Below, one piece after another: positions 14,864 to 64,000 of a stretch of 64,000 nt of DNA. The first letter of the stretch is position 1; the number at the start of each line of letters is the position of its first letter. Below the pieces are notes generated by a model, which worked only from the letters and a program-made list of their open reading frames with translations, was not told the DNA's origin and did no database searches. The position numbers and the translations under genes were made by a program. Origin of the DNA: Anaerococcus hydrogenalis DSM 7454 (GTDB lineage Bacteria > Bacillota > Clostridia > Tissierellales > Peptoniphilaceae). The DNA lies in assembly GCF_000173355.1 (NCBI RefSeq), contig NZ_ABXA01000002.1:1-64000 (forward strand), given 5' to 3'.

Positions 14864-15235
14864 TCACTTAAATTCCTTATTATACATTAACTTATATCTA
14901 TTACAGTTTTCAATTAAATCATCGTGACTCCCATCACCTACTATTTTTCCATTATCCATCACAATAATTCTATCAGAATTCATCGCACATCTTATCCTAT
15001 GGGTGATATATATAATAATCTTATCATTCAAATTATTTAAAATATTATCAAATCTAGTGGAATGACTTTGAATTATATTAATTATTGTTTGTCCTAATTT
15101 AAGAACTAAAAACGGAAAAACACCACTTACAATTGACAATATTATAGTAATCGCAAAAGAATTTTTAACTACTTCATAAATCATCTTGAATGCTATTTTT
15201 ATACATTCAAGATGATTTATTTTATCCTTACCCAT
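14864..15235 (-). pseudogene. ABC exporter remnant with a large internal deletion
   Basis: This 123-residue ORF joins the first membrane segment of an ABC exporter (about residues 1-55, FKMIYEVVKNSFAITIILSIV) directly to the end of an ATPase domain. The second part keeps the H-loop region YITHRIRCAMNSDRIIVMDNGKI and the usual C-terminal helix. Walker A, signature and Walker B are gone, so it cannot transport. The original gene was probably about 550-600 residues and of the same general type as the exporter at 59752-61565. It suggests that a peptide exporter once belonged to this locus. Confidence 0.8.
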
Positions 15236-16622: not shown

Positions 16623-16823
16623 TTAATATGATGCTCTAAGAGTTTTTAAAGCGCGAACTCTGTTACCAGTTCTATATTCTCCTTTACCGCCAGTATCACT
16701 ATCATAATAGTAAAAATTATATTTTGTTTTAAATGTTTTGCCTAATCTCCCTGGATATTCTTCCTTACATAACTCTTTGTACTTATTTTCTAACTTTTCT
16801 TTTTCTAGGGTTATTAAGTCCAT
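16623..16823 (-). CDS. Small 66-residue peptide gene within the ABC operon
   Basis: A short gene whose ATG at 16823 is preceded by TTGGAGGTAATT, a strong ribosome binding site, inside the 3' end of the upstream permease gene (41-nt overlap in another frame). The N-terminal half is helical and charged (LEKEKLENKYKELCKEEYPG). The C-terminal half is Tyr- and Gly-rich and basic (YNFYYYDSDTGGKGEY, ending LKTLRASY). I do not recognise it. It is followed by a hairpin and lies between two paralogous permeases regulated by a VanRS-like pair. That position would suit a peptide that the transporter handles, an intact or relic precursor, or simply a small accessory protein. No modification enzyme lies next to it. 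Confidence 0.6.
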   Translation of the reverse strand: MDLITLEKEKLENKYKELCKEEYPGRLGKTFKTKYNFYYYDSDTGGKGEYRTGNRVRALKTLRASY

Positions 16824-18952: not shown

Positions 18953-19126
18953 TAAACTACCTCCCTTATCTTTTATGCTTCCTTATTAAAAAGTAAAAAA
19001 TACATCTTCATGTTAGTGATAAAAATTTTACTCCTCTATGATTTTATTTTAATTGATACAATAAAAAAGTGTTTTAATATTCTATTGATTAATTCTTAAG
19101 ATTTCATTAATTTTTAAAAAATAAAA

Positions 19127-19164
19127 ACACCTTAATTATGTAGTTTTATACATAATTAAGGTGT
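19127..19164 (-). terminator. Strong intrinsic terminator after the histidine kinase gene
   Basis: ACACCTTAATTATGTA is repeated in perfect inverse with a 6-nt loop (16-bp stem) and followed on the minus strand by five Ts and an AT-rich tail. It separates the regulator/kinase transcript from the ABC operon, which therefore needs its own promoter between 18953 and 19126. Confidence 0.8.
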
Positions 19165-19169
19165 AATCC

Positions 19170-49838: not shown

Positions 49839-50655
49839 TCAAATGTTTAACCTATTTATCTTATAACTTGATTTTAACTTTACCTTATCTCTATTTGTTA
49901 GATACTCTTCTACATCAAACAAGTTTTTCTTATCATAATCTTCCAACAACTTGTAATTCTTATGCTTTGTAATATCGAATTTATCAGATAAGAAAGGTCT
50001 TACTCCTCTTAGCTGGTATATACACTTACCACCATCCATTACAGTTATTTCATCTTGGCTCATAAGTTCCTTGCCAGTCTTTTGATAATTTAGTCCAAAA
50101 GATTTTTGGTTAGATCTTGTTTCTGATGTGTTATATAAGTCTATGGTTTCTTTTCCTAAGGTTTCTGATAACTCTTTTACTGTTGTTTTTTCTTTTCCTC
50201 CTAAGAAAAGTGTTGAGTCACAGTTACCAACTATTGTATCTGCATGGTCTTTATAGATTGCTTTTAATTGAGATTGTGCTTGCAGTATTATGCTTGCTGA
50301 TATTTCTCTTGAACGAATTGTTGCAATCAATTTTTCAAATTTAGGAATCAAGCCTATATTCGCAAACTCATCAAGTAGACATCTAACATGAACTGGAAGT
50401 CTTCCACCATACACATCATCTGCCTTATCACAAAGTAGATTAAATAATTGGGAATACATTATTGAGACTACAAAGTTAAAAGTATCGTCAGTATCTGATA
50501 TTATTACGAATAAAGCAGTTTTCCTATCTCCAATTTTATCGAGTTCTAATTCATCTTCACTCATTAGCTCTCTAAGCTCTCTTATATCAAAAGGTGCAAG
50601 TCTTGCTCCACAAGATATTAGAATTGACTTGGCAGTTTTTCCTGTAACAACTTGT
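49839..50655 (-). pseudogene. VirD4/TraG coupling protein, N-terminally truncated
   Basis: About 272 residues of a coupling protein remain. The frame opens near 50655 (GKTAKSILISCGARLAPFDI), includes the second half of the ATPase (VRCLLDEFANIGLIPKFEKL, the Walker B glutamate; STLFLGGKEKTTVKELSETL) and ends with the tail KHKNYKLLEDYDKKN. The first roughly 330 residues, with Walker A and the membrane helices, are missing. A TGA lies a few codons upstream and the TnpW gene ends 10 bp away, so a second module has replaced the 5' end. An internal ATG at 50564 exists, but a product from it would be inactive. Transfer would need a coupling protein supplied elsewhere. Confidence 0.85.
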
Positions 50656-50665
50656 CAAGGACTTT

Positions 50666-50851
50666 CTAATCATTTTTGTCGACTTTTTGATGTTTTTCTC
50701 TCTCCATTTCTCTAAGCATTATGCGTTTTAATTTGTCTTGCATTGTTTCCGTTGCATTTTCATTAAAGTGAACAACAACCTCATAGGTTGCTTTACCAAT
50801 TTTCTTTATAGTTTTTGTTCCTGTATTCTGTTTATTTTTATTTTCGTGCAT
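50666..50851 (-). CDS. TnpW-like transposon-encoded small protein
   Basis: This protein of about 61 residues has the TnpW hallmark KKIGKATYEVVVHFNENATETMQDKLKRIM. TnpW-type proteins are found in Tn4451/Tn5397-like and CTn elements; their function is unknown. The ATG at 50851 is behind ACAGGAGG and is preferred to the upstream start. It is placed between the replisome organizer gene and the truncated virD4. Confidence 0.8.
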   Translation of the reverse strand: MHENKNKQNTGTKTIKKIGKATYEVVVHFNENATETMQDKLKRIMLREMEREKHQKVDKND

Positions 50852-50879
50852 ATATTTTCCTCCTGTTTGTTGCAATAAT

Positions 50880-50917
50880 AAAAGGCGATTAGATTTTTAA
50901 TTTTCTAATCGCCTTTT
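50880..50917 (-). terminator. 13-bp perfect hairpin upstream of the TnpW gene
   Basis: AAAAGGCGATTAG pairs with CTAATCGCCTTTT over 13 bp with a 12-nt loop. It lies between the replisome organizer gene and tnpW and probably terminates the former. A 34-codon frame without a proper start (ending NMTLKRRLEN) runs into it. Confidence 0.75.
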
Positions 50918-51009
50918 AAGTGTCATATTTACATTTTTATTATCTCTGGCATACTTTGATACCTTTTTAGACTTAAAGTCTTTAATAATGCCTTTCCACC
51001 TCTTTTTAT

Positions 51010-51723
51010 CTATAAAGATTCTCCTACGTCATAGTTCATTTTTTTATTTAAACCTTTCTGTCTTAGTTTGTCTTTATCTTCTTCATACCAATTAAGGATT
51101 GTTACATAATGGTCTTGATAGTTTTTTCCTGAACTTTTGATATATCTTGATAGCTTTTCAATCATTGTATCTGTATGACTTTGAAGCTTATCCTTTAGCT
51201 TATGGTATTCTTCTTCAGTTAATCGAACATTTTGATATTTTCCGTAAAAAGAAACTGGGGCTGATTGGTTTTCTTTTTCTCCTCTCCCCTTATCTATACT
51301 AACCTTATCTAATCTACCCTTACCTATACTATGCGGACAAATGGTTGACACTTGGTTGTCATTTGGTATACCAAGATTTTCAAGTTTGATATATGCTCCA
51401 TTTTCTGTTTGTGTTAAGCTTTGTTTTTCTGTAATATACATCGTTTCTTTTCGCCTGTCATTCCTGATGTAGTTATTTATCTTCCAATGAGTAATTACAA
51501 TAATTCCCCTTTCAAAGACAATTACAAAGCCTTTTGTTATTAAGATTTTTAGGTCATCTTCATTTGCTCCTATGATTTTTATTATCTTCTTTGGATTGTC
51601 CACAAAACCATCATCATCTGCCCTCATTGATAGATGAAAATACAGACATTGACTACTTAGTGGCATATCCAAAAATAAGTCGCTATCTACTATCTTTAGT
51701 GAAAACATTCTTTTATCTGCCAT
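51010..51723 (-). CDS. Replisome organizer-like protein (RepA/DnaD-associated)
   Basis: This 237-residue protein has the N-terminal domain common to phage and element replisome organizers: MFSLKIVDSDLFLDMPLSSQ, CLYFHLSMRADDDGFVDNPK and an HTH-like stretch ending ITHWKINNYIRNDRRK. The C-terminal third is helical (LTEEEYHKLKDKLQSHTDTM, then SSGKNYQDHYVTILNW), as in proteins that recruit the host helicase. It probably starts replication of the mobilizable module. It begins behind TAGGAGAGC. A second protein of similar type is at 53054-53533. Confidence 0.8.
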   Translation of the reverse strand: MADKRMFSLKIVDSDLFLDMPLSSQCLYFHLSMRADDDGFVDNPKKIIKIIGANEDDLKILITKGFVIVFERGIIVITHWKINNYIRNDRRKETMYITEKQSLTQTENGAYIKLENLGIPNDNQVSTICPHSIGKGRLDKVSIDKGRGEKENQSAPVSFYGKYQNVRLTEEEYHKLKDKLQSHTDTMIEKLSRYIKSSGKNYQDHYVTILNWYEEDKDKLRQKGLNKKMNYDVGESL

Positions 51724-51752
51724 GCTCTCCTACCTTTCTTCAAATAAAAAAA

Positions 51753-51777
51753 GACGATAGTTTTTACTTCTATCGCC
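51753..51777 (-). terminator. Hairpin upstream of the replisome organizer gene
   Basis: GGCGATAG pairs with CTATCGTC (one G-T pair), followed by a T-run on the minus strand. It is one of several similar GCGAT-type hairpins placed in front of genes in this module. Confidence 0.55.
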
Positions 51778-51830
51778 CTTTGTAAGTGTATATAGCTATT
51801 TATTTAATAACTATTTGCCATTTTCATATT

Positions 51831-52904
51831 TTATTTTTCTGAATCTAATTCTTTTATAGACTCTTCTATTTCTTCAATAGATGGTAAGCTGCTTTTATAT
51901 TCCTGCTCGAGTAGTTTGCTAATTTCATACTTACTTATTCCTATTGGCTGTGAGATATTTTCAAGCGAATATTCAGCGACTACATTATCTTTATCTCTGC
52001 AAATTAGTATTCCTATGGTTTGATTATCACTATTTGATTTCATATTCTTATTTACAGCTGTTACATAAAAATTGAGTTGACCTGCAAATTCCGGCTTAAA
52101 TTTTTCTGTCTTTAATTCTACTACAACATAGGAGTGTAGTTTAACATGATAGAAAAGTAAGTCCATATAAAAATCACTTTCTCCAACCTTGATATGGACT
52201 TGCCTACCCATGTAAGAAAATCCTGTCCCAAGTTCCAAAAGAAAAGAAGTTATTTGATTTACTAATGCTTCTTCCAACTCTCTTTCATCATATTTATCTC
52301 TTATTGTTAGAAAATCAAAGTTGTATGGATCTTTTATTGTTTGCTTAGCTAATTCAGATTGGACAGCCGGTAATCTATTATCAAAATTAGTAACTGCATT
52401 CCCAACCCTTTTATATAAATCTCCATCAATCTGATGTTCCAAAACCGTCCTGCTCCATCCATTTTCAATAGTCTTATCTATATAAAACAAAGCCTCTTTG
52501 ACATCTTTACACTTATACATAATCCTTTGATTATGTCCCCAAGGAATACTTTTTATTCTTCTTTCAACATCCGATAATTGGGTTACAGCTTGTAACCCAA
52601 TTAGGTAATCATTATAAAAGATATACCAATATCTTATGTGTTTTAAGTTTACGGCTGAAAATCCTCTCATATCTGGAAATTCTTTTCTTAAATCACTACT
52701 CAATAATTTTAGAAAACTATCACCCCAAGAATATTGCTTTTGTTTTTCAACAATTTCTTTTCCCAAGTTCCAATACAAATCAAGCAACTCATAATTAACT
52801 TTTACTGCTGCTTTTAATTGACTGCGTCTAACTTTTTCCTTTAAATCTAAAAGTAATTTTTTATATTCACTATCTCCTATAATAGCTAAATCTTTTTTAT
52901 CCAT
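51831..52904 (-). CDS. DUF1016/PDDEXK nuclease family protein (YhcG-like)
   Basis: This 357-residue protein has an N-terminal DUF1016 domain (YELLDLYWNLGKEIVEKQKQ, DMRGFSAVNLKHIRYWYIFY). The C-terminal PDDEXK nuclease domain has GESDFYMDLLFYHVKLHSYV and VVELKTEKFKPEFAGQLNFY, so the acidic and Glu-x-Lys catalytic residues are present. The family is spread through mobile elements and restriction islands; the specific role is not known, and defence or recombination is possible. The ATG at 52904 behind TGGAGTG is preferred. It sits between two replication genes as likely cargo. Confidence 0.88.
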   Translation of the reverse strand: MDKKDLAIIGDSEYKKLLLDLKEKVRRSQLKAAVKVNYELLDLYWNLGKEIVEKQKQYSWGDSFLKLLSSDLRKEFPDMRGFSAVNLKHIRYWYIFYNDYLIGLQAVTQLSDVERRIKSIPWGHNQRIMYKCKDVKEALFYIDKTIENGWSRTVLEHQIDGDLYKRVGNAVTNFDNRLPAVQSELAKQTIKDPYNFDFLTIRDKYDERELEEALVNQITSFLLELGTGFSYMGRQVHIKVGESDFYMDLLFYHVKLHSYVVVELKTEKFKPEFAGQLNFYVTAVNKNMKSNSDNQTIGILICRDKDNVVAEYSLENISQPIGISKYEISKLLEQEYKSSLPSIEEIEESIKELDSEK

Positions 52905-53053
52905 TCTAATCACTCCAATCTGATTTTTTATTTTATTCTATTTCTAACGCCAATGGTGGGAGTTTTAATCTTTTTATCATAATCAGCCTATGGTAAACAA
53001 GCTCATTTTATCATTACACATTTAGTTTAATTAATGTGATTATACCAAAAATG

Positions 53054-53533
53054 TTAAATCTTTTCTATCTCTCCCTCTATCTCTTTCTCTATCTCTATAT
53101 CTTTCTCTATCTCTATCTCTTGTCGGACATGGGTTGGACTCATTAAGGACAATGTCCTCTGTTTATTTTGTCTGTATCTTCTTTTTTTCTCTGCCCAGGC
53201 TGTTTCTGATCCTATTAAGTTTGGTATTTCAGTTAAATAGTATTCATCATTTTCTGTTACAACTTCTAGTAAGCCTTGATTGATTAAATAATTAACTGTG
53301 ACCATTACATCATCGTCTGTTTCATCTATGGTTAGTGCTAACTCTTTTATAAAATCACTTTCTACTCCGTCATAATAGAGTTTGCCCTCATCTTTTAGGC
53401 TTAGTAGTAGAAGTTTTAGGTAGATTATCGTGTAGGTATCTCCTCCCGATATTCTCCTTAGTCTTTTTATCCTTTTGTCTGTGAAAAATTCTTCTTTCAA
53501 TTTTATCCAATAATATCTTTTGTTTGTTGCCAT
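53054..53533 (-). CDS. Phage-type replisome organizer N-terminal domain protein
   Basis: This 159-residue protein begins KRYYWIKLKEEFFTDKRIKR and continues SGGDTYTIIYLKLLLLSLKD, the typical replisome organizer N-terminus, followed by ETAWAEKKRRYRQNKQ. The last 22 residues are an EIEKDIEIEKE-type repeat encoded by a TCTCTA hexanucleotide tract, so the usual C-terminal helicase-loader domain is missing. Three to four 23-bp repeats lie directly upstream and are likely its binding sites. It is probably the initiator, or a truncated initiator, of the MobL module. Confidence 0.82.
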   Translation of the reverse strand: MATNKRYYWIKLKEEFFTDKRIKRLRRISGGDTYTIIYLKLLLLSLKDEGKLYYDGVESDFIKELALTIDETDDDVMVTVNYLINQGLLEVVTENDEYYLTEIPNLIGSETAWAEKKRRYRQNKQRTLSLMSPTHVRQEIEIEKDIEIEKEIEGEIEKI

Positions 53534-53543
53534 ATCTGCTCCT

Positions 53544-53619
53544 TTCTTGATTTTCGATAATCGAAATTCTTGATTTCCGATTTTCGGAATTCTGGACTTC
53601 TGCTTTTCGGAAGTCTTGT
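53544..53619. repeat. 23-bp iteron-like repeats, candidate replication origin
   Basis: Imperfect copies begin at 53544, 53567, 53590 and (partial) 53613, exactly 23 bp apart. Each opens TTCTTGA or a variant. The first two then carry a palindrome, TTTCGATAATCGAAA or TTCCGATTTTCGGAA, and the third carries GCTTTTCGGAA. They end about 10 bp from the replisome organizer start. Regular spacing with embedded palindromes suggests initiator binding, for origin function or autoregulation. Confidence 0.65.
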
Positions 53620-53658
53620 TATTATGGTTATTTAAGGGTGTAACTTTTCGTTACTCCC

Positions 53659-54186
53659 TTAGATTTCTCTGGTCATATCTTTTTTGTTTGGTTTTACTTT
53701 TTCTTTTACTTTTCTTTTGACTTTTTCTTTTGTCTTATCCTTGTTCTTGGATAGATTTTTATATTTCTTTATTTGTTTTAGGATACTTTCTTTTTCTCTT
53801 TTATTTTCTTTGGCTATGACTTGTTTAAAGGCATATTCCATTACTTTTATGTCTTTTGCTTGGAAAAATACTTCATAGTTTTGGTTTTCTTTGTTTTTCA
53901 TTACTGAAAACTTTACTCCAATTTTGTTTAGTTCTTTTTTTAAGTCTTTTAGGTCGCTTTGATCTATGCTTATGTTTTCTAGTTGTCCTTTCTTGTAGAG
54001 GTCTTTTATTTTTATTTCATCGCCCATAAAACTTTTGAGGTTTCCGTTTGCTTTTTCTAAAGTATCATTCATCTTTTTTCTTATTTCTTTGTCTAAGTTG
54101 ATTAATTCTTTTGCTGCCTTTATTGTGTATGATATTATGGTTTGTGCTGCTTGACCTGCTTCTTTGCTTATTTCTTCGTTTATCAT
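53659..54186 (-). CDS. PcfB family (DUF3801) mobilization protein
   Basis: This 175-residue protein has the PcfB pattern: SKEAGQAAQTIISYTIKAAK at the start, GDEIKIKDLYKKGQLENISI in the middle, then LKKELNKIGVKFSVMKNKEN and YEVFFQAKDIKVMEYAFKQV. The tail is lysine-rich. In pCF10 PcfB-type proteins accompany the coupling and relaxase genes. It is placed upstream of a small gene and MobL, which fits a relaxosome or coupling role. It starts behind AAAGGAG. Confidence 0.85.
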   Translation of the reverse strand: MINEEISKEAGQAAQTIISYTIKAAKELINLDKEIRKKMNDTLEKANGNLKSFMGDEIKIKDLYKKGQLENISIDQSDLKDLKKELNKIGVKFSVMKNKENQNYEVFFQAKDIKVMEYAFKQVIAKENKREKESILKQIKKYKNLSKNKDKTKEKVKRKVKEKVKPNKKDMTREI

Positions 54187-54369
54187 GTTTTATCTCCTTT
54201 GTTTGAATTAAAAAAATGGAAGTATAGGCTTTAATTTTTCTATACTTCCCTTTAATTGTTTTTATTTGGTTGTTGGCGGTGGTGGAATGCCTTATTTTGA
54301 TGTTTATATAGCTTTCTTAGGTCTTTATACCTTTTATACTTTTAAATAGCTTAAAATATCTTTCCACCT

Positions 54370-54543
54370 TTAATAGTTTATGTGTGTTCTTTGGTCTGAT
54401 AGATAGTTTTTCATGTTAGAATATATAATCTGTATTTCTTCATTGTTCATTGCTTTTATTTCTTCTGTGCTTCTATATGTTTTGTATGTTCCATCTTGAT
54501 CTGCTTTTATGAGTTCATCTATTAGCTCTTGCCTTTTATTCAT
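54370..54543 (-). CDS. Small 57-residue protein between MobL and PcfB genes
   Basis: A short gene beginning MNKRQELIDELIKADQDGTY and ending QRTHINY, with a strong CTAGGAGG site at good spacing. It looks soluble and helical. I do not recognise it, but the clean start and the position inside the mobilization operon make it likely to be real. The remainder of 54187-54616 holds a hairpin (about 54215-54253) and a short startless frame ending HRQQPNKNN. Confidence 0.6.
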   Translation of the reverse strand: MNKRQELIDELIKADQDGTYKTYRSTEEIKAMNNEEIQIIYSNMKNYLSDQRTHINY

Positions 54544-54616
54544 CTCTATTACCTCCTAGATCTGCCTTTATTTTCTTGGTCATATTATAGCTTGGATAAG
54601 ATATTTTTACCAGGTC

Positions 54617-56257
54617 TTATCTTTCTTGATTCATTTTCTTGTTTTTCATACTTTCTCTGTATTCATTATCTTTATTAACTTGGTCTTGGAATTTTTTAAT
54701 CTGTGCTATTACACTTGGTTTTTCACCTTGTTTTATTAGCTTATCTATTTCTATGGATAAGTCTATACCTAATTCTTTGTTTACAAAATCTACTGAATAT
54801 TTTATATGATTAATTTCCTGGTATTCATCTTTTATCTTGTCTTTCTCTTTATTTATTTCTTCAAGATTTGCCATTAAAAGATTTTTTTCTTCATTCCATT
54901 TTTTAGGACTTAGTTTTTCCTTATCTGATAGGAGTTTTTTTAATTTCCCGCTTACTACTTTATATTGGTCTATGTCTTTCTTATGTTTGTTATAGAATGT
55001 GTCTTTTGTGAATATATTTTTCTTTTGATATTCTTCATAAACTTCTTTTTTGGATTTGTAGATTTCATAGTATAAAATTTTCTTTTCTACATCTTCCATT
55101 TCTTTATGGATTGTCTTTGCTTTTTTATTTAGTTTGTAGCTATTAGACTTTAAAGATTCTATTTTTGTTTGTAACTGACCTATGGTTTCTATGTCATTTT
55201 TTCTTAAATAACTATATGCACTTGTTAGCTTTTTGAAGTCATATTTTTCTTTATTAGTTTTTGCATATTCTCTTAGATATTTACTTTTTTCTTTTTGAAT
55301 TTCTGAATAAGTTAATAGATAATTTGTTAGATTGAAAAGTTTAGGGTTGTCTATTACCTTATCTCTTTCTATATCCTTAAATTTTTCATAAGCAGTAGAT
55401 AGATTATCTAATAAATTTCCTATCCAACCCTTTAATGTTTTTATCTCTTCTTTTATTGTTTTTACAAGGTTATTATATTTTCTTATTTCTCTATTATAGT
55501 TTCCTTTGTCAGTTTCTATTCCCTTTCTTTCCATTGCACTTGCTGCTGATCCTAAATGGATTGTCGGTAGATAATCTGAATTTTGTCTTTTAAAACTCCT
55601 ATGGTCTACTCTTTTTTCTATCTTGTTTTTTGCTAGATATTCATTGCAAAGGTCTGAAAAATTTTCTCTCCATTTTTCTACATTGCCCTTATCATTCCAG
55701 GTTGTTAGTTCTACTTTTCTTGTCTTTGGTTTTCCATTTTTGTTTAAAATCTTTTCTCCTTTTTCATCTAGGATATATTCTTTTTTTGACTTTGCTAAGA
55801 ACTCTCCTTTTTCGTTTATGGGTCGCATTATGGTCATTATATGACAATGGATATTTCCATTTTTGTCTTGACTCTCATCATGGATTGCATAATCTACTAT
55901 CATTCCTTGTGATGTTAGATTTTCTTTTATAAATCTTTCAACTAGGTTTTTATTTTCACTTAAAGTTAATTCTTTTGGTAGTCCTATTATGAATTGTCTT
56001 GCTAGTTGTGCATTAGAATTTTTTTCTGCCATTTCTACTTTATTCCATAAGGTCGACCTATCATTAAATTCTTTTGGTATATGATCAGGCAATATTATAT
56101 TTTTTACTAATACTTTTTCTTTTCTTGTATAGTCATGGGTTACTCCGTCCCATTCATTTTTTATTTTTTCTCCACTTATATATGCTGCACTTGCTACTGC
56201 ACTTTTGCCTTTTCCTCTTGATATTATGTTTACTGAAAAATGAAAACTGTCTACCAT
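54617..56257 (-). CDS. mobL: MobA/MobL (MOBQ) family relaxase
   Basis: This 546-residue relaxase has the MobA/MobL opening FHFSVNIISRGKGKSAVASA followed by AAYISGEKI. The N-terminal Tyr in that region is the usual nucleophile. The metal-binding motif NGNIHCHIMTIMRP is near residue 150, with LARQFIIGLPKEL before it. The C-terminal half (about 260-546) is coiled coil and may serve as a scaffold or primase-like region. The ATG at 56257 behind AGGAAGTGAT is preferred. A candidate oriT with an RSF1010-like nic sequence lies 270 bp upstream. This is a second, unrelated relaxase in the window. Confidence 0.92.
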   Translation of the reverse strand: MVDSFHFSVNIISRGKGKSAVASAAYISGEKIKNEWDGVTHDYTRKEKVLVKNIILPDHIPKEFNDRSTLWNKVEMAEKNSNAQLARQFIIGLPKELTLSENKNLVERFIKENLTSQGMIVDYAIHDESQDKNGNIHCHIMTIMRPINEKGEFLAKSKKEYILDEKGEKILNKNGKPKTRKVELTTWNDKGNVEKWRENFSDLCNEYLAKNKIEKRVDHRSFKRQNSDYLPTIHLGSAASAMERKGIETDKGNYNREIRKYNNLVKTIKEEIKTLKGWIGNLLDNLSTAYEKFKDIERDKVIDNPKLFNLTNYLLTYSEIQKEKSKYLREYAKTNKEKYDFKKLTSAYSYLRKNDIETIGQLQTKIESLKSNSYKLNKKAKTIHKEMEDVEKKILYYEIYKSKKEVYEEYQKKNIFTKDTFYNKHKKDIDQYKVVSGKLKKLLSDKEKLSPKKWNEEKNLLMANLEEINKEKDKIKDEYQEINHIKYSVDFVNKELGIDLSIEIDKLIKQGEKPSVIAQIKKFQDQVNKDNEYRESMKNKKMNQER

Positions 56258-56359
56258 TTTTATCACTTCCTTTCTTTTTTTTGTTGTTTTAGGTGGAGGC
56301 TTAATAGATTTTTATATCCACTTTGTGAATGAGCATTTTGAAATGATAGAATAGAAAAA

Positions 56360-56402
56360 GCCGACTACTGAATTAATTTTTGTTGTTTCAGTATGTCGGC
56401 TT
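56360..56402. terminator. Hairpin between oriT and mobL
   Basis: AAGCCGACTACTGAA is closely repeated in inverse as TTCAGTATGTCGGCTT with a loop of about 15 nt. It could be a terminator or attenuator for mobL, or a secondary structure of the oriT region. Confidence 0.55.
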
Positions 56403-56526
56403 AATTGTTACTTTCATTTCAAATTTTAAAAATCAAGGGCGAGCGTTAGCGAGTTTATTTACCCTTGACTTTTAAAAAGCGAATGGTTGTTGCTCCCTGC
56501 AAGGGTTTGGCTCCGCAGGACGCAAG

Positions 56527-56570
56527 CACCCTTTAGGGTGTATAATTGCGCCCTTAGAAAATCTAAGGGA
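56527..56570. other. oriT: Predicted oriT of MOBQ type
   Basis: The palindrome CACCCTTTAGGGTG (56527-56540) is followed by TATAATTGCGCCCTTA, which resembles the RSF1010/MOBQ nic region (inverted repeat, then AAGTGCG/CCCT). By that model nicking would fall between 56550 and 56551. A second inverted repeat, CCCTTAGA-AAA-TCTAAGGG, follows at 56551-56570. The GC-rich 56470-56530 stretch (GGCTCCGCAGGACGCAAGC) stands out from its AT-rich surroundings. The relaxase gene is transcribed away from it. Confidence 0.65.
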
Positions 56571-56591
56571 GATTTGATTATTTTATTTTTC

Positions 56592-56882
56592 TTAATTTTC
56601 TCTCATTATTTTTAGTGTTTCTTTAAATTCTTTTGTTTTTGTTGCTTCTTCTAGTAGAATTTTTATTTCTTCATCTGTTAGCTCTTCTGCATTTTCTATA
56701 AGACTTTCTAAGATTGCTCCTCTTGTTATGAGCCTATGAGTTCTTTCTTTTCTTTTTTTTACTATGTCTTGTTTTAATATCTTCTTTTCTTGATTTTTTA
56801 GTTGCCTTAATCTTTCTTCTGTATCATCAATTTTATCTTTTATTTCTTTTGACTCTTGACTTATTTGTTCTAGTTTTTTCAT
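56592..56882 (-). CDS. DUF3847 family mobilization accessory protein
   Basis: This 96-residue protein is helical (LEQISQESKEIKDKIDDTEE) with the DUF3847 core ERTHRLITRGAILESLIENA, then ELTDEEIKILLEEA. DUF3847 genes usually accompany MobA/MobL relaxases near oriT and may act like MobC in the relaxosome; this is inferred. It starts behind GAAAGGAG and is transcribed towards the oriT. Confidence 0.85.
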   Translation of the reverse strand: MKKLEQISQESKEIKDKIDDTEERLRQLKNQEKKILKQDIVKKRKERTHRLITRGAILESLIENAEELTDEEIKILLEEATKTKEFKETLKIMREN

Positions 56883-57003
56883 ACTAATCTCCTTTCTTGT
56901 ATTAAAAAAAGACGATGAAGATATACTCTCCCCGTCTTTAGGTTGTTCTCTACTTAAATATTAAATTTAAAATATTTATATCCTCCTTTTGTATTTTTAG
57001 CAA

Positions 57004-57050
57004 TAAAAGTGGCAAAGAATTTTTTTCTTTTCTTAGCCACTTTTATCAAT
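57004..57050 (-). terminator. Terminator downstream of the protease operon
   Basis: AAAAGTGGC is repeated in inverse as GCCACTTTT, with further pairing of AAGAA/TTCTT and an A/T-rich loop. It lies just past the stop of the 145-residue gene and ends the operon of the peptide locus from the right. Confidence 0.75.
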
Positions 57051-57061
57051 AATTAATATTT

Positions 57062-57499
57062 TTAATTAACACTTATGTTAATTATATTTTTAATTTTTTC
57101 GGTAAGGTCATTTTCTGTAATGTATGTTCTAAATACTTTGCCATTTTCATAACATTCTATATAAGTATTGTCACTTTCTGCATAAATCAACAACTTAGTT
57201 TTACCATCACTTACAATTTCAATAAATTTCATTGGTTCTATCTTTAACCAATCATCTTTATCTAACTCTTTAATATCATTTGCAATTAAAAGATCAGACA
57301 GTTCTTTTTTTATTTCTTTTGTAAACTTGACATTTTTATATGCATCTCCATCACTAAAGTCTATTTCATAATAATTTTCTGGTAAAATTTCTCTTATTTT
57401 TTCATAGCTTTTGTCATTATTAAAGTATAAAAATATAATAATAACAGCAATAAAAGATATTATAGATATGAGTAAAACATTCTTTTTATTTATAACCAT
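57062..57499 (-). CDS. Membrane-anchored hypothetical protein in the protease operon
   Basis: This 145-residue protein has one N-terminal membrane helix (residues 8-26, LLISIISFIAVIIIFLYF) and an extracellular domain with YYEIDFSDGDAYKNVKFTKE and MKFIEIVSDGKTKLLIYAES. I do not recognise the fold; a small beta-rich domain is likely. Its ATG overlaps the stop of the caspase-like protease gene, so the two are co-translated. A role as inhibitor, anchor or immunity partner of the protease is possible but only inferred. Confidence 0.75.
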   Translation of the reverse strand: MVINKKNVLLISIISFIAVIIIFLYFNNDKSYEKIREILPENYYEIDFSDGDAYKNVKFTKEIKKELSDLLIANDIKELDKDDWLKIEPMKFIEIVSDGKTKLLIYAESDNTYIECYENGKVFRTYITENDLTEKIKNIINISVN

Positions 57500-58895
57500 T
57501 ATAGTTTCTATTTCCTCTGAATCTTATTGGACAATATTCTGGTACTGCATCCGCCGCTTTCAAAGCTGCATTTCTAACCGAAATATTCTTATCAAGTTTT
57601 TTCCAAAGTTGTACTGAAAAATCATAAGAAAGCTTTTGACCAACACTTTCATACCAACCTAAAAATGCCTTGTTTGAAGTTGTTCCATCATATATACCAA
57701 AGGCATTCGCCCAATCACTATTTTTTCCAGTATTACATGCATCTAAATAAATAAACTTATAATTTCCAGATGGAACATTATTTCTATGAAACTGTCTATC
57801 TTTATTATCTTTATCCTTTTTTGAAGATATAACATCAGTACTTCCATGAGAACAAGAGTAGAAAGCTTTCACACCGCTTTTCAAAATATTTGGTACTTCT
57901 GTTCGAAAATTTTGAGAGTTTTTTGATTTAATTGGAGTATATCCCAATTTTGATAATCCTTTTTTAGCAGCATTTATACTTTCTATTGTATATGTTAATT
58001 CTGGAGCACCAATTATGCCACCAAGTTCTTTATAAATATCTCCGCCTATACAATCACCAGTTTTAGCATCTATATAAATCTCTCCAATTGAGTTTTTAAA
58101 CACATATGCAACTTTTATTTGACCCACATCTACATTCATACCTGTATATTTTTCAAACATCGCATTAGTTTTTACTGTTTTAATTCTATCAAAATTTAAA
58201 TCACTTTCTATTCCAATTTTTTCAAATACTTTTATTGCAATACTCTTCGCATCATTATAATCAATAAAGTTATCCTTTAATCCAATATCTGATATGTCTC
58301 CAGATCTATGAAAAAGAATCAATTCATTATTCTTTTTATCTATTATTACGTTTATATAATTAAACGTATCTTCAACATTGTCGTCTACATAATTAAATTT
58401 GAATAATACTGTTGAATCATCAACATCATATTCATTTGTAAGTTCATATTTTTCATTTTTAATTAAATTATTTTTCACATAATCTAAAGTTTCCATAGTT
58501 GAAGTAAAATTTATTTTTTTATTGTTTTGAATTCTCTCTAAACTATCATTTGCATTTTCTGACAATCTATCTATATAATTTATTAGATTATCTTCAACAA
58601 CTGCATATGATGTATTATTAAACTTTACTATGTCTCCCTTAACATCACTCGGTATATCTACATTTGATGTATTATTAAAATTTATATTGCTTTCTTTAAT
58701 ATTACTTAGTGTATTAACATCATTAGTGTCAGTATAAAATTCAGAGCTTTCAAAATTTGCTCCTAAATTTTCTAGAATAGTTACATAATCTAAATCATCC
58801 TTTGATTGAGCATATGCTGATGAAGCAAATACATTTGTTGCCATTGCTGTTAACAGCATTACCATGGCTATTAATAGAGTAAATCTTCTCTTCAT
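57486..58895 (-). CDS. Secreted protein with PepSY-like region and caspase-fold (clan CD) protease motifs
   Basis: This 469-residue protein has a signal peptide (1-25, ending NVFASS). Residues 30-220 are of unknown fold. About 200-270 is PepSY-like (AKSIAIKVFEKIGIESDL, then VFKNSIGEIYIDAKTGDCIG). The C-terminal domain (about 300-469) shows the clan CD pattern: a hydrophobic strand ending in His-Gly (AFYSCSHGS) and a second one ending in Asp-Ala-Cys (KFIYLDACNTG). These would be the catalytic His and Cys of a caspase/gingipain-type peptidase. The ATG at 58895 behind GAGGAGG is preferred. It is encoded next to a radical SAM peptide locus and could process an exported peptide; this is inference. 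The protease call itself rests on two motifs. Confidence 0.7.
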   Translation of the reverse strand: MKRRFTLLIAMVMLLTAMATNVFASSAYAQSKDDLDYVTILENLGANFESSEFYTDTNDVNTLSNIKESNINFNNTSNVDIPSDVKGDIVKFNNTSYAVVEDNLINYIDRLSENANDSLERIQNNKKINFTSTMETLDYVKNNLIKNEKYELTNEYDVDDSTVLFKFNYVDDNVEDTFNYINVIIDKKNNELILFHRSGDISDIGLKDNFIDYNDAKSIAIKVFEKIGIESDLNFDRIKTVKTNAMFEKYTGMNVDVGQIKVAYVFKNSIGEIYIDAKTGDCIGGDIYKELGGIIGAPELTYTIESINAAKKGLSKLGYTPIKSKNSQNFRTEVPNILKSGVKAFYSCSHGSTDVISSKKDKDNKDRQFHRNNVPSGNYKFIYLDACNTGKNSDWANAFGIYDGTTSNKAFLGWYESVGQKLSYDFSVQLWKKLDKNISVRNAALKAADAVPEYCPIRFRGNRNYNGYK

Positions 58896-58954
58896 TTCTA
58901 TCCTCCTCATATAATTTTGTCCTTCCTCAATATATTTGACATTAAAATCAAATA

Positions 58955-59048
58955 TTATCTATTTTTCCAACTGTTGTTTCTAGCTATATTATAAAATATA
59001 GCATCTAAACTAATCGCCATTACTATATCTCATAGGATTTAAATCCAT
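58955..59048 (-). other. Tiny ORFs with a strong ribosome binding site upstream of the protease
   Basis: AGGAGGTGAAATA precedes an ATG at 59048 encoding MDLNPMRYSNGD (12 codons, stop at 59010). A second ATG at 59020 in another frame encodes MAISLDAIFYNIARNNSWKN and ends one residue later at 58955. Removing one base near 59013 would join them into a 30-residue peptide. With so many one-base indels nearby, a small peptide gene is plausible. The function is unknown. Confidence 0.4.
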
Positions 59049-59063
59049 TATTTCACCTCCTAT

Positions 59064-59463
59064 CTATCTTACATATGAGTTTATCTTTACCTTTCCTGAT
59101 AATGTTTTATTTGATTCATTATCAATCGTAACAACATATCTACTTCCTCTATTAGCCTTAACATTTAATATTGAGTCTGAAGAAAAAAAATTTGTTATAT
59201 ATAATTTTTCCATCTTCTTCAATAATTACCTGATATTTAATTTCACCTGAGCAAGACATATCTTTTAATCTAACTGTAAAACCATCATGAACTGGACCTG
59301 TCCAGGTATCCATGTTAAATTCATAGTCTATCTTATCAAATCTACTTAATCTTATATTCTCATCAACATTTGCTGCTCTAAGACCTGTCCTCGATACTTC
59401 TCCTAATCCTAACTTTTGATACTCTTCGTCACTTATTATTTGAACCCTATCTCCTAATAAAGT
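59064..59463 (-). pseudogene. C-terminal part of a secreted-type protein, frameshifted
   Basis: The first frame reads VQIISDEEYQKLGLGEVSRT, NMDTWTGPVHDGFTVRLKDM and VIIEEDGKIIYNKFF, then is shifted by one base in an A8 run (59183-59190). It continues SILNVKANRGSRYVVTIDNE and ends NSYVR. The composition suggests an extracellular beta-sandwich. There is no start codon: a stop precedes it at about 59464, so the N-terminus and signal peptide are missing or lie in another frame. Confidence 0.55.
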
Positions 59464-59479
59464 TTAATTAATACTATAT

Positions 59480-59703
59480 CTATTGTTTCGTTTGACATTT
59501 TGAGCATCTGTATCTACCTGTACCATCCAAGTCAAATATTTGGTATATACAAACGACCAAAGCATTTGCTATATCGTTAGCAGTTTTAAGGCTCGGAATT
59601 GTTTTCCCAGTTTCTATTTTATTTATACTAGTTCTTGATATTCCCACTTTTTTCCAAATCTATGTTGCGATTAACCTAAAGGTTTACGGTATTTCTCAAT
59701 ATA
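59480..59703 (-). pseudogene. Degenerate Xre-type regulator
   Basis: Fragments in two frames spell EKYRKPLGLSQ and then VGISRTSINKIETGKTIPSL, KTANDIANALVVCIYQIFDL, a Cro/CI-type helix-turn-helix followed by the usual tail. The frames are offset at a GGAAAAAAG run, and further mutations and a missing start indicate a pseudogene. It may once have regulated the peptide locus. Confidence 0.6.
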
Positions 59704-59751
59704 AGTAGGTAACCTATTATCATAACCACAAAATCACTTAAGCATATTTTT

Positions 59752-61565
59752 TTAACACTTTACTCCACCTTTAATATCAGCATTATCCGATACCACATCA
59801 TTCTGTAATTTGTAGAGGTTATAATATAACCCCTTATTTTTAATTAACTCATTATGGTTACCAATCTCAATAATATGACCATTATCTATAGTTATAATAA
59901 AATCAGCACTTTCAACTATTTTATTAAATCTATGTACAATTACAATTTTAATTTTTCTTTTGAATCTTCTGCAATTGTATTAAATATAGCATTTTCCGAA
60001 ACCAAATCAATTGATGCATTCGGTTCATCAAAAATATATAAATCTCTATCACTTACCAATGTTCTACCAAGTGCAATTTTTTGCCACTGACCAATTGATA
60101 ATTGCAATCCTTCATTAAATTGATATCCAAGCTGTTGATTTTTCTTCAATATCAAATCATCGAGTTGTACTTTTCCCATTACTTCATCAATATCATCTTT
60201 TTTATAATTAGCATCAATTTTACCATATCTAATATTGTCACTAATACTTGTTTCAAACTTTATATAATCTTGAAATAGCACTCCAACTTTATTTCTATAT
60301 GAATCTAAATTTATATTTCTCCTATCAATGTCATTAATTAATATTTCACCTTCATAATCATTATATATACCCATGATTATTTTCATTAAAGTTGATTTCC
60401 CTGAGCCGTTATTACCCATAATTATATAAGTTTTCCCCGACTCTATTTCTAAGTTAATATTTTTTAATACATACTCATTCTGATTTTGATATTGATATGA
60501 AACCCCTTTAAATTTTATTGTATTAATTTCGCCTATAACAATCCCATCCTTATTAATATCTTCTTCTTCAATATTAAAAAATTCTTTGATTTGTTCAATC
60601 ATTGCAGAATTTTTGTACAAAAATGAAAGTTGCGAGAACATTGATAAAACGCTGCCTTTTAGGCTATCAATTGAGTTATTATATAATACAAAAAAACCAA
60701 TTGAGATAATATGATTAAAAGCTTGGATAATTATAAATACTGTAATCATAAAATCTACTAATAATTCAAATAAAGATATTATCCCATATGTTATTGCTCT
60801 TTTGTTATGTAATTTAATAAATTCTATATTACATATATTCTTGATATTTTTATATTTTCTTATAAAAAAGTTAAATAAATTAAACATCTTAATTTCTTTA
60901 AAATGTTCGGCATTAGTTAATATGTGGGATATGTACGAACACTTTCTTAATTTTTCTGTATTTTGTTTTTCTACCTCATACTCTAATAAATTATATTTTT
61001 TCTCAAATAAATATCTTACTATGGGTAGAACAATTACTATGAAAAATATTGCAATATTATATTTTAGAATAATTATCATATAAGAGATTGTACTAATTAC
61101 AGATGAAACTAAAGAAAACAATGTCTTTACACTTCCTAAAATCCCAGCATTAGCATCATACTGTGTCCTGTTAATAAGATCATATGTTTTACTTCTTTCA
61201 AAATCTTTACAGTCCAGTAAAGAAACTTTAGTTAATATATTTTCTTGAAAATAAGCATCAAATTGCAACTCATAATTTTCTATCTTAAGTTGTGTGAAGA
61301 TTTGAAATATCGTTGATAATAATTCGAAACATGATAAAAATACCATCCATATAATGACAGTTCGAAAATCTCCAGTTCTATACTGTATGCAATCAATTAC
61401 CTTTTGTATTATTAATAGTAGAATAATTGGAGTCACTCCACTCAATATTGAATCTATACACAAACATATAAAATATCTTTTACTGTAACAATATACCCTT
61501 TTTAATGACCAAAGAATATTTAAAAACAATCCTTTTGTAGTTACATCCTTTTTCTTCATTATCAT
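59752..61565 (-). CDS. ABC exporter of the peptide locus, frameshifted near its end
   Basis: This ABC half-transporter of about 604 residues has six membrane helices in about residues 25-310 and an ATPase domain with Walker A GNNGSGKST, signature LSIGQWQK and Walker B LYIFDEPNAS. It has no N-terminal C39 peptidase domain, so it would export a peptide without cutting its leader. The frame stops at KEKLKL, but adding one base to the A5 run at 59952-59956 gives IKIVIVHRFNKIVESADFII and a normal C-terminus ending at 59752, restoring the H-loop His. It starts a few bases after the radical SAM gene. The signature LSIGQ is atypical but known in bacteriocin exporters. Confidence 0.85.
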
Positions 61566-61574
61566 ATATCTTTA

Positions 61575-63036
61575 TCATCTAAACTCGATTTCTGACATTG
61601 CTTTTTTTAATCTTTCAGGATCTCTTTCAAATACTGTAAAATAATTAACGAACATATCTTTTACGATTCGTCTCGATGTATCGCACATTCCATCAGTTTC
61701 ATACCTATTTGAATCGTCTGTAGTTATTGAACTCTCATAACAAACGCCACACATCATCCTTGCCCAGCAATTATTGCATTTTTTTACGATAATTTTTCGC
61801 ATATTCATCAATATAAATTTTGTAGATCCTATCATAATCATATCCATCAAAACAATTCCCTAACGGAGGAATATTTCCAACTTTTTCACATGGTCTAAAA
61901 TCTCCTTGTGTCGTCACGTATAATCGTCTTTGTCCTGGCAAACAGTTTCCATGTAAAAACGACCTATCTATTATATCATCTGATTTTATTCTATCGGCAA
62001 CCCTTACAAGTTCTTTATTGATCAATCCGAAATATTCAGACGAAACACCATTGGTTTCAAAATCTTCAACTGCAATACCTTCAAGCGGACTAATTTCTAA
62101 ATTCTTATTCTCTTCCACTACATTATTTTTGTCATAATCAAATACCATATCACCTACATCTACATACGAATAATTTATGTTTATTTCTTTTGGTACTCCT
62201 AGTTCAGTCCTAAAATAATCACTTATTTTATTTAACTTCTCCTTTGTATACGGTGGTGTAATAACGCAATTTATCATCAATGTCCTTCTATTATCAGGAT
62301 TATAAAAGTTTTTTAAGAGTTTACAGAAATTTTTGGTCGCAACTTCATATGAACCTGTTCCACTAATATTACATCTATATTTATCATGGAATTTTTGGGG
62401 TCCATCTAAACTACAAACAATCTCTAAATCTTCCAACTGACTAAAATAGCTTATCATATCATCTGTAATGAGAGTTAAATTAGTCGTAAATCCGAAACTC
62501 TTTTTCACTTTAGGATAATTATCTTTAAAATATTCAATGGTTTTTTTCATAAGCTCAAACTCAACTAACGGCTCTCCTCCATAATATGTAAGGGCAAATT
62601 CATCCCCATCATACTCCTTCATTAAATAGTCAATGCTTTTCTTTGCTATATCAAAGTTCATTGTCTTATTAGAAAATCCTCTATGATCTGGATGATGATC
62701 ATTGTATATGCAATATCCACATCTTAAATTACAAGCTTCAGTCAGTTCAAGTACTATCTGTTCACACTTTCCTTTTACTGAATCTTCGAATTCTTCTCGT
62801 GTAGGAATTACAAAATCCCAAGAACTATTCTCATTAAATAGATTTTCTTGTCTTACAAACTCTCCAAAAACTTTATTATTTGAACACTCGTTTTTTAAAC
62901 TTGTTTCGCCAGACAAGATTCTATCAATAATTTCTACTTCTGAGTCATCACATAAAACAACCTTACCTGTCGCAGTGTCATAATAATATTTATTATCTTT
63001 TGTTTGAAATATCATGCCATATTTTTGAACATTCAT
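61575..63036 (-). CDS. Radical SAM/SPASM peptide maturase, one frameshift
   Basis: This enzyme of about 486 residues is predicted to modify the adjacent Cys-rich peptide. The N-terminal 90 residues resemble the precursor-binding region of peptide maturases. The radical SAM cluster motif is CNLRCGYC (about residues 106-113), followed by TYYGGEPLVEF. A SPASM domain with CEKVGNIPPLGNC leads to CNNCWARMMCGVCY and a last Cys in DGMC. The frame stops at AKNYRKKMQ. Removing one base from the A7 run (61779-61785) joins RKKCNNCW, so the second half of the SPASM domain is in 61575-61850. If the break is real, the auxiliary Fe-S cluster is lost. The start follows TAGGAGG. It is perhaps related to CcpM-type maturases. 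Confidence 0.9.
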
Positions 63037-63069
63037 CCCTTAATCCTCCTATCGTTATCATGTTATTAC

Positions 63070-63109
63070 GGCGGAGGATAGTTTCTGTAAACTACAGCCA
63101 TCCCCCGCC
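63070..63109 (-). terminator. Hairpin between precursor peptide and maturase genes
   Basis: GGCGGGGGA and TAGTTT pair with AAACTA and TCCTCCGCC, with an ACAG apex and one mismatch. It sits between the peptide and radical SAM genes without a long T-run, so it more likely attenuates or stabilises the peptide transcript, giving more precursor than enzyme. Confidence 0.6.
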
Positions 63110-63140
63110 AGTATTAAGCTATTTTAGAATAATTAAACTG

Positions 63141-63320
63141 TTAAGCATCTTTTGCCTTTTTAAAATTAGCATTGTTATTCTCTGTATTTCCTTTTATACA
63201 GCTACAGTTGCAATTCCAAAATGGTTGCCATGGACCTCTTGTACTTTTCCAACCACTGTCGCATACACATCCTGCTCTTCTAAGTACAGGTGTTCCTGTT
63301 GAATCATTAATAATCTTCAT
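63141..63320 (-). CDS. Cys-rich RiPP precursor peptide candidate
   Basis: A 59-codon gene with a strong AAAGGAGG site. The leader reads MKIINDSTGTPVLRRAG. The core has Cys18 and Cys20 (GCVCDSGW), a Trp/Pro-rich link (STRGPWQPFW) and Cys37, Cys39, Cys41 (NCNCSC), then a polar tail ending KKAKDA. Two alternate-Cys clusters around an aromatic link, next to a radical SAM/SPASM enzyme and an ABC exporter, indicate a thioether-type peptide (sactipeptide or ranthipeptide). It is reminiscent of the clostridial Cys-rich bacteriocin-like precursors, but I cannot match a named family. The Cys count is odd (five). Confidence 0.82.
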   Translation of the reverse strand: MKIINDSTGTPVLRRAGCVCDSGWKSTRGPWQPFWNCNCSCIKGNTENNNANFKKAKDA

Positions 63321-63473
63321 TGTTTTTTCCTCCTTTGTTGAGTTAATTTATATTCCCAATAATCAGTTATATTTACAATATTCGCTTGCTACTATGCTCA
63401 ATATATGCATATAGGATCCCTAATTGGCACTGCAACAAGCTACATACCACTTTATAGCTGATTATTTAGAAAC

Positions 63474-64000
63474 TTAGTTTTGACAACATTTGCTAAATGT
63501 TGAATAAACAAATGGAATCGTTATTATTACAATAATCGAATACATCACTATTATCATAGGTATCTGCATAACTACTTTCCCTAAAACTTGATACAATAAA
63601 GGTATCTTAATACAGTTATATACATTTATTAACTGATCTGGTGTTATGTTGAAAAAGCCATCAAAAGGTAATACTCTACCAATAAATGGAGATACCACAA
63701 ATAATATCATAGGAACGCATAAGCTTATAAGTGGTGAATGTGTTTTAGCTGATACAAGCATTGTCAACACACTTGAAAGCAAACTCCCTACATAACCCGC
63801 AAGCATAATAACAAAATATCTTTCTAAAAATGTATAGTTGTACATGCAATAACTATATTCAATTTGAATTGGTGAATTAGCTCCACTGACACCCATAAAT
63901 GCAAAGGATATAATTGAAAGAATAAGCATTGCTCCCCAATAAATAATTGTCGCCATAAACAATCCTGTTAGTATCTTAGTCTTAGTCCCTCTGCTTCTAC
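63474..64000 (-). CDS. ABC-2 type permease, partial at the window end
   Basis: A membrane protein whose frame is open to the right edge (RSRGTKTKILTGLFMATIIY at the edge side), with about six hydrophobic segments and a C-terminus ending FSKCCQN. The basic motif before the first visible helix parallels the RTTRNGRNK / KTTKYGRRK motifs of the permeases at 15-18 kb, so it belongs to the same family with a large extracellular loop. It is the gene before the precursor peptide and probably part of an immunity or export transporter for it. Its ATPase is expected further right. Confidence 0.7.
   Translation of the reverse strand, partial: RSRGTKTKILTGLFMATIIYWGAMLILSIISFAFMGVSGANSPIQIEYSYCMYNYTFLERYFVIMLAGYVGSLLSSVLTMLVSAKTHSPLISLCVPMILFVVSPFIGRVLPFDGFFNITPDQLINVYNCIKIPLLYQVLGKVVMQIPMIIVMYSIIVIITIPFVYSTFSKCCQN

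Follow-up and report, generated by a model that had tools for sequence, protein, structure and literature searches.

A divergent ruminococcin C-type sactipeptide locus, probably encoding a double-hairpin peptide, within nested mobile elements of Anaerococcus hydrogenalis

The right end of the 64,000-nucleotide stretch of Anaerococcus hydrogenalis DSM 7454 analyzed here (contig NZ_ABXA01000002.1, positions 1 to 64,000; hereafter, the window) contains a minus-strand gene series that consists, in the order of transcription, of a permease-like gene, a gene for a 59-amino acid (aa) Cys-rich peptide, an RNA hairpin, a gene for a radical S-adenosylmethionine (SAM) maturase and a gene for an ATP-binding cassette (ABC) exporter. 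This locus is real and of a divergent ruminococcin C (RumC) type, and it yields a clear chemical prediction, namely, that the encoded peptide is probably a sactipeptide with five thioethers arranged in two hairpins.

The precursor, the maturase and their relatives

A strong ribosome-binding site (RBS; AAAGGAGGAAAAAACA-ATG) precedes the precursor gene, and the five Cys of the peptide form two clusters, CxC and CxCxC (coordinates are collected in Table 1), as an earlier note on this DNA had described. The best NCBIfam match of the precursor is the CA_C0660 family (NF035954; 32.2 bits, E 8.5e-8), followed by Apre_1838 (TIGR04067; 19.2 bits) and RumC (NF035950; 11.1 bits, E 0.28), all below the respective curated cut-offs of 60, 45 and 40. 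Beyond these three, NCBIfam gave no match at E up to 1, not even to the CLI_3235, Clo7bot and SCIFF precursor models that the note had suggested for a check, and a comparison with solved structures gave no credible match. Among six relatives scanned singly with the Apre_1838 model, four scored above 45 (G006, 126.2; G008, 104.5; G100, 67.2; G035, 63.8), G020, the closest relative, scored below (18.5), and G043 gave no match. Judged by its sequence, the precursor is remotely related to the sactipeptide families CA_C0660, Apre_1838 and RumC; this kinship is clear, although the precursor belongs to none of them by the family's own rule. Because of these sub-threshold matches, and because same-genus relatives exceed the Apre_1838 cut-off, we regard the locus as a divergent RumC-like sactipeptide branch and not as a new class. 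The proposal that this is a radical SAM locus for a thioether-containing ribosomally synthesized and post-translationally modified peptide (RiPP) is well supported by the CA_C0660 match and by the similarity of the maturase to RumMC (see below); the accompanying statement that the core pattern fits no named class is not supported by the same searches.

The Cys pattern is a stable feature of the relatives: CxC...CxCxC is present in 14 of the 15 distinct precursors (the window included; G100a and G100b share one precursor), the sole exception being L046, with CxxxC in the second cluster as in RumC, and the random Cys spacing in homologs that the note had named as a refutation was not seen. Part of this set was picked by the pattern CxC plus a later C-x(1-3)-C, such that CxC is partly built in and CxCxC is not. 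Four precursors (window, G020, L047 from Lachnospiraceae, and G191) contain only these five Cys; an extra Cys three residues before the second cluster is found in eight of the 14 CxCxC precursors as well as in L046, and the first cluster is CxCxC in two of the 14. An alignment of nine precursors, three of which are near-identical, shows no variation at the five Cys, Lys2 and Asn50. The Trp/Pro-rich link emphasized in the note is present in the window peptide, with three Trp, but, unlike the Cys, it is not conserved across the 15 precursors.

The first of the two pieces of the maturase scores above the cut-off for Pfam Radical_SAM and yields 13.8 bits for SPASM, below the cut-off of 21.5; the RumMC profile (NF035951) continues over the second piece. 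The CxxxCxxC and SPASM-type Cys set is present (C102/C106/C109, C365 and C383 in the first piece; C25/C28/C34/C37/C56 in the second). RumMC is the best of the 67 families that match the maturase, with 349.9 bits for the first piece and 47.6 for the second (cut-off, 720) and 380.8 bits for the intact G020 maturase, and the next family for the first piece is CcpM (229.1). The first piece yields 113.5 bits with PapB, 99.9 with the SCIFF maturase and 74.9 with the anaerobic sulfatase maturase model; a sulfatase-maturase or SCIFF identity was rejected given scores far below that of RumMC, and the affinity to sulfatase maturases listed in the note as a further refuting outcome was likewise not seen. 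An IQ-TREE phylogeny of 24 maturases, with the window represented by the first piece alone and RumMC1/2 absent, groups 18 RumMC-like sequences in a clade (100/99) against six other peptide maturases; the window and G020 maturases are sisters that share a long stem (100/100), the Apre_1837 group forms a clade of its own (100/99), and the deep branching among the 18 is poorly resolved. A search for RumMC1/2 in the genus of the L056 genome found none in 58 genomes at E <= 1e-80. In the structural model of the G020 maturase (mean predicted local distance difference test score 75.5), the closest solved folds are 5why and 5wgg (E 2.4e-17), entries titled on thioether formation in sactipeptides; its N-terminal domain, looked at for a RiPP recognition element, is three-stranded and helix-rich. 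For two members of the clade of 18 (G089a and G089b; loci L043 and L044, the latter from Clostridiaceae bacterium M8S5), the lists of open reading frames (ORFs) contain no CxC-type precursor nearby; a 55-aa ORF with CGDCGW adjoins the first of these maturases.

Among 31 genomes of the genus, 6 encode RumMC-like enzymes (E <= 1e-60); with the window protein as the query (E <= 1e-45), carriers number 11 among 130 family genomes and 2 among 398 in a phylum-wide sample, the source genome included throughout. A search of genome contigs with the window protein as the query gave no match; of the 376 relatives confirmed by the profile search that followed, the best 80 were covered. Against plasmids, distant blastn of the 57-64 kb region gave two short matches only, and five partial matches were found in unannotated phage records. 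In L041, L142, L230 and L231, phage-type ORFs (amidase, holin and tail-like, identified by eye) adjoin a RumC-like cluster whose precursor has the pattern CRCYC...CGCAC; we read this cluster type, which is found on two IMG/VR contigs, as a prophage-borne sactipeptide cluster. In the literature on Apre_1838/CA_C0660 and RumC-type sactipeptides, no study of the peptide branch of the window was found among the matches listed.

Predicted thioethers, rival readings and leader removal

RumC is an experimentally worked-out double-hairpin sactipeptide (PMC6779426), and window residues 16-59 and mature RumC1 (6t33_A), both 44 residues long, align without gaps, with 12 identities, this being the best of 61 offsets. 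All four RumC Cys are in register (C3, C5; C22, C26), with the window adding a fifth Cys between the last two, and the RumC1 acceptor K42 is retained in the window core. We consider this alignment suggestive of RumC kinship. The RumC1 bonds, in full-length numbering, are Cys22-Asn35, Cys24-Ala31, Cys41-Lys61 and Cys45-Arg53 (PMC6779426); in this favoured model, a Cys step of -2 in the CxC hairpin goes with an acceptor step of +4, and the second hairpin follows -4/+8. When the -2/+4 step is applied to CxCxC, a middle rung results in which the extra Cys would be paired with F53. Behind the last Cys, 14 of the 15 precursors have 16 or more residues, and in three of them the chain stops exactly at +16. 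In our proposal, drawn by analogy with RumC, the maturase would act as a radical SAM/SPASM enzyme of the RumMC kind: it would remove hydrogens from C-alpha atoms and link the five Cys sulfurs to downstream C-alpha atoms, forming two hairpins, with C20-T27 and C18-W31 predicted for the first hairpin from the RumC register, and C41-N49, C39-F53 and C37-K57 for the second, where the C39 rung is without a RumC counterpart. The window peptide would thus be a double-hairpin sactipeptide with three rungs in the second hairpin, compared to two in RumC. A more tentative proposal, in which we place clearly less than even confidence, is that the CxC...CxCxC precursors, Apre_1838 included, share this three-rung ladder in the second hairpin and carry five or six C-alpha thioethers. 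Known sactipeptides generally have one to four thioethers, and RumC and streptosactin are named as exceptions to the single hairpin in a 2021 review (PMC8326336); gnavucin D is most likely a double-hairpin peptide as well (PMC13239113).

Several observations weigh against this assignment. Neither the precursor nor the maturase reaches a family-level hidden Markov model cut-off, and the maturase and the exporter are both split between frames in the assembly. With the Cys fixed, identity to RumC1 is only modestly unusual (8 non-Cys identities vs. 3.4 expected, P 0.013; P 0.053 by BLOSUM62), and three of the four RumC1 acceptors are changed (N16 to W, A12 to T, R34 to N). The authors of the RumC study do not fully exclude a swapped pairing in the first hairpin (PMC6779426), so the -2/+4 rule rests on the favoured model. 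The G191 peptide, with the same Cys pattern, has a 15-residue tail, which is too short for the outer rung and counts against a strict rule. Sulfatase-maturase entries appear from rank 5 in the fold search (4k36, E 5.5e-13), so the fold alone does not decide the enzyme type. Finally, G020 lacks Arg or Lys three residues before the first Cys, such that the activation by trypsin considered below fails for the pair of closest relatives.

The frame splits underlie the most serious rival explanation, that the locus is dead, with the maturase and the exporter being true pseudogenes that make no product and only the permease, ATPase and sigma factor genes possibly acting, a state comparable to that of the decayed cluster in the outer element. 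This reading, compatible with the RumC-type identity of the locus, appears to us a substantial possibility, albeit clearly short of even chances. Two of the three biosynthetic genes are affected: the maturase consists of two overlapping ORFs that switch frame in the SPASM region near 61.78 kb, at an A/T run of 7, and the first ORF of the exporter stops early, with the switch near 59.95 kb. The earlier note had missed both splits, although its radical SAM/SPASM maturase otherwise stands by the Radical_SAM match and the SPASM-type Cys, if not by the Pfam SPASM score, and its ABC exporter lacking a C39 domain by the Pfam matches. Kin of the cluster have decayed, the outer cluster of the same contig and G035:C1 having lost maturase and precursor sequence (see below), and five of the 20 source-genome contigs examined, listed on the same side, are shorter than 1 kb, as in short-read assemblies. 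With 10.9 A/T runs of at least 5 bases per kb, finding a split close to one is weak support for sequence error, and the splits of the exporter and of another large gene at 27.2 kb, at runs of only 4-5 bases, prove little. Against the loss of function, the maturase is split at a run of 7 and a small gene at 59.18 kb at a run of 8, and runs of at least 7 are rarer (1.2 per kb); the 27.2-kb gene is split although it is intact in relatives; and, in a control comparison of 208 kb of the source genome with 800 kb of G006, two of the 35 chromosomal genes tested switch frame, near A/T runs of 6 and 7. Also against it, the precursor, its RBS, the hairpin and the upstream genes are intact in the assembly. 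The maturases of same-genus G005, G006, G014 and G020 contain no stops (the G008 match has one TAG in one comparison and none in another). The splits lean toward sequence or assembly error, with the caveat of a small sample. Programmed frameshifting was set aside, with no dedicated test, since several unrelated genes are split. The small gene at 59.18 kb is represented by two overlapping ORFs (59064-59313) beside a run of eight A, which look like a single gene divided by a frameshift.

A ranthipeptide-like product, with beta- or gamma-thioethers instead of alpha, is an unlikely outcome. The maturase also matches PapB and the SCIFF maturase, the closest solved fold, 5why, is what we take to be CteB, a SCIFF maturase, and CxC motifs alone do not set the bond type. 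However, RumMC, for which alpha-thioether bonds are established (PMC8188230), scores about three times higher. Moreover, the Cys register of the window peptide follows RumC. CxC and CxCxC are metal-ligand motifs as well, and the link contains three Trp, but it is highly improbable that the five Cys serve in metal binding or disulfides while the radical SAM enzyme modifies the link otherwise, given that this link is not conserved in the precursors whereas the Cys are, and that RumMC-type maturases act on Cys (PMC8188230).

Under the RumC-type reading, the modified precursor has to be exported and trimmed. The exporter scores above the cut-off for ABC_tran and yields 26.7 bits for ABC_membrane (cut-off, 28); a C39 peptidase domain was not found among the Pfam matches of the window or G020 exporters, and no cluster-assigned ORF resembles a protease by eye, with no dedicated search. 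Arg15 is located three residues before the first Cys, the same place as Lys19 of RumC, after which trypsin cuts (PMC6779426). Arg is found in this place also in L047 and G191, and it lies one position closer to the first Cys in L046 and L232; the other 10 of the 15 precursors have neither. We propose that the exporter would send out the modified precursor with the leader still attached and that cleavage behind R15 by a trypsin-like protease outside the cell would then yield a 44-residue active, putatively antibacterial peptide as for RumC. By this analogy, such activation is possible for the window peptide but not general in the group. The ABC ATPase and the permease may provide self-protection, and the extracytoplasmic function (ECF) sigma factor may provide control. 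A secreted 474-aa protein (57486-58910) was rejected as a leader peptidase: homologs occur in 14 of the 130 family genomes (own included), and among the 11 carriers of RumMC-like enzymes only the source genome (G000) has one; in the set of solved structures, nothing matched the protein at E up to 1. An HxxEH motif (HLLEH, HLFEH) is found in proteins encoded beside RumMC-like maturases or in a neighboring cluster (L041 5240-5869; L144 8876-9901); we take this motif to be M16 peptidase-like and these proteins to be candidate leader peptidases, with no counterpart in the window cluster.

The 104-nt gap between the precursor and maturase genes folds at -30.7 kcal/mol (z -4.2, with none of 200 shuffles equally good), which bears out the hairpin of the earlier note. 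It was rejected as a Rho-independent terminator, having no U-run and not being among the two terminator-like sites predicted. The G020 gap also folds (z -3.0; 3 of 200 shuffles equally good), but its stem differs and is rich in A+U. In the window (gap 63037-63140), the UCCUCC of the 3' hairpin arm is complementary to the maturase RBS GGAGGA, which an alternative fold could mask. The permease-like protein (63474-64679) has no Pfam family above cut-off and is so named because it is 22-27% like permease ORFs of related clusters; the ABC-2 permease claimed upstream thus holds as to this likeness but not as to a Pfam assignment. Past the window, the series continues with an ABC ATPase (43.7% identity to its counterpart in the pAPRE01 cluster), a 262-aa protein with no Pfam or NCBIfam match (within contig 64660-66900), an ECF sigma factor and then the serine recombinase.

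Mobile setting and a second, decayed cluster

The virD4 region of pAPRE01, from Anaerococcus prevotii DSM 20548 (G006), is split on the contig into 70097-68997 (95.6%) and 50644-49125 (92.3%), pieces that overlap by 5 bases in pAPRE01, with ~18.35 kb between them. Because these pieces flank a serine recombinase, a relaxase and the RiPP cluster, this cluster is, by its sequence context, the cargo of an integrative mobilizable element (IME) in virD4 of a pAPRE01-like conjugative element. The insert has the features of a serine IME: a serine recombinase, its own relaxase and precise insertion in the target gene. A region 84% identical to the relaxase side of this element, followed by a recombinase gene, is present in pAPRE01 (50746-56275 and L241, pAPRE01 56000-68000, examined); it lies outside virD4, with no RumC-like cluster in the annotated part examined.

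The outer element carries its own cluster, an Apre_1838-type copy at 14.3-20.9 kb (14313-20892), whose three pieces are 96.7-99.9% identical to the G005 cluster. A deletion of ~1.6 kb fused the maturase start to the precursor end, and another of ~1.4 kb, at a 17-base repeat, removed most of the exporter. In G035:C1 (L146 5919-7183), the maturase is truncated to 364 aa and the precursor largely lost, with the exporter intact; compared to the window copy, the left breakpoints differ and the right breakpoints lie within 8 bases. Among six copies found of this close cluster type, G005, G006, G014 and G112 have the maturase and the precursor, and two, in the source genome and G035:C1, kept transport and control genes yet lost the peptide. 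The retained ATPase, permease and control genes may confer self-protection. A VanZ-family gene (14315-14836, named from the pAPRE01 annotation) adjoins the decayed cluster, as in pAPRE01.

Table 1. Features of the sactipeptide locus, its carrier element and the decayed cluster (window positions unless marked as contig)
Feature	Position	Strand	Remarks
Precursor peptide, 59 aa	63141..63320	-	Cys 18/20/37/39/41; predicted leader 1-15, core 16-59
RNA hairpin in precursor-maturase gap	63070..63109 (approximate, counted by hand)	-	without U-run
Radical SAM maturase, first frame	61771..63036	-	CNLRCGYC, YYGGEPL, first SPASM-type Cys; RumMC-like
Maturase C-terminal SPASM-type Cys cluster (CNNCWARMMCGVC...C), other frame	61575..61850	-	RumMC profile positions 431-504
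ABC exporter, first frame, without C39 domain	59940..61565	-	ABC_tran match
ABC exporter C-terminus, other frame	59752..59952	-	
Permease-like protein, C-terminal part in window	63474..64000, gene to 64679 on contig	-	
ABC ATPase	64660-65547 (contig, beyond window)		upstream of permease-like gene
ECF sigma factor	66313-66900 (contig, beyond window)		upstream part of cluster
Inserted mobilizable element, ~18.4 kb	50645-68996 (contig); window part 50645..64000		carries RiPP cluster
Relaxase of mobilizable element	54617..56266	-	matching pAPRE01 region includes annotated MobQ relaxase
ORF in 3' part of interrupted virD4	49839..50564	-	host conjugative element
Serine recombinase	67299-68900 (contig)		one end of inserted element
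Maturase-precursor remnant	16623..16835	-	first 49 codons of Apre_1837-type maturase fused to last codons of Apre_1838-type precursor
Exporter remnant	14864..15235	-	N- and C-terminal pieces fused by deletion
Surviving permeases	15266-16495, 16783-18063	-	names from pAPRE01 annotation
Surviving ABC ATPase	18065-18952	-	name from pAPRE01 annotation
Surviving histidine kinase, response regulator	19170-20216, 20209-20892	-	names from pAPRE01 annotation

Comparison with known systems

The conserved extra Cys of this sister group, found in Anaerococcus and other Bacillota, makes it possible to test directly whether RumMC-type enzymes obey a ladder rule, and the gapless RumC1 alignment pinpoints the residues to check. 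The nested setting, in which a cluster with an intact precursor rides on a mobilizable element within a conjugative element that has lost the biosynthetic genes of its own cluster, lends itself to studying how bacteriocin clusters and presumed self-protection genes spread and decay apart. The window element resembles Tn6104 of Clostridioides difficile, a serine IME inside traG (PMC5704250), in the serine recombinase, the insertion site in a VirD4 coupling-protein gene and the bacteriocin-type cargo, which, however, is a lantibiotic cluster in Tn6104 and a RumC-like sactipeptide cluster here.

The G020 locus of the same genus (L035 9944-16610) likewise has the precursor first, with CVC...CNCGC in 59 aa, and the maturases are 44-47% identical; unlike the window locus, it is chromosomal by its neighbors (EF-G/EF-Tu-like and transposase-like ORFs, by eye), lacks Arg at -3, and encodes the ATPase, two permease-like ORFs and the exporter 3' of the maturase. 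The Apre_1834-1840 cluster of pAPRE01, noted in 2011 as thuricin CD-like (PMC3132745), encodes a peptide annotated as an Apre_1838 family putative sactipeptide bacteriocin. It shares with the window cluster the genus, the pAPRE01-like conjugative backbone, a RumMC-like maturase, a short CxC...CxCxC precursor, an ABC ATPase, permeases and a large ABC exporter. The maturases, however, are only 31-33% identical, the precursor precedes the maturase in the window and follows it in pAPRE01, the window peptide has five Cys without the extra CxxC Cys, an ECF sigma factor takes the place of the two-component system, and the window cluster is carried by the inserted element whereas that of pAPRE01 is on the backbone.

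Of the named precursor families, CA_C0660 is the best match, though under its cut-off; the one paper listed for this family, PMC4845359, names it a single time. RumC of Ruminococcus gnavus (NF035950/NF035951) shares with the window locus the 44-residue core, the CxC and the Cys pair 4 apart in register, a basic residue at the known or predicted leader cut and the RumMC-like maturase. The differences are the fifth Cys in the second hairpin, a core with 12 of 44 residues identical, and scores below the RumC and RumMC cut-offs.

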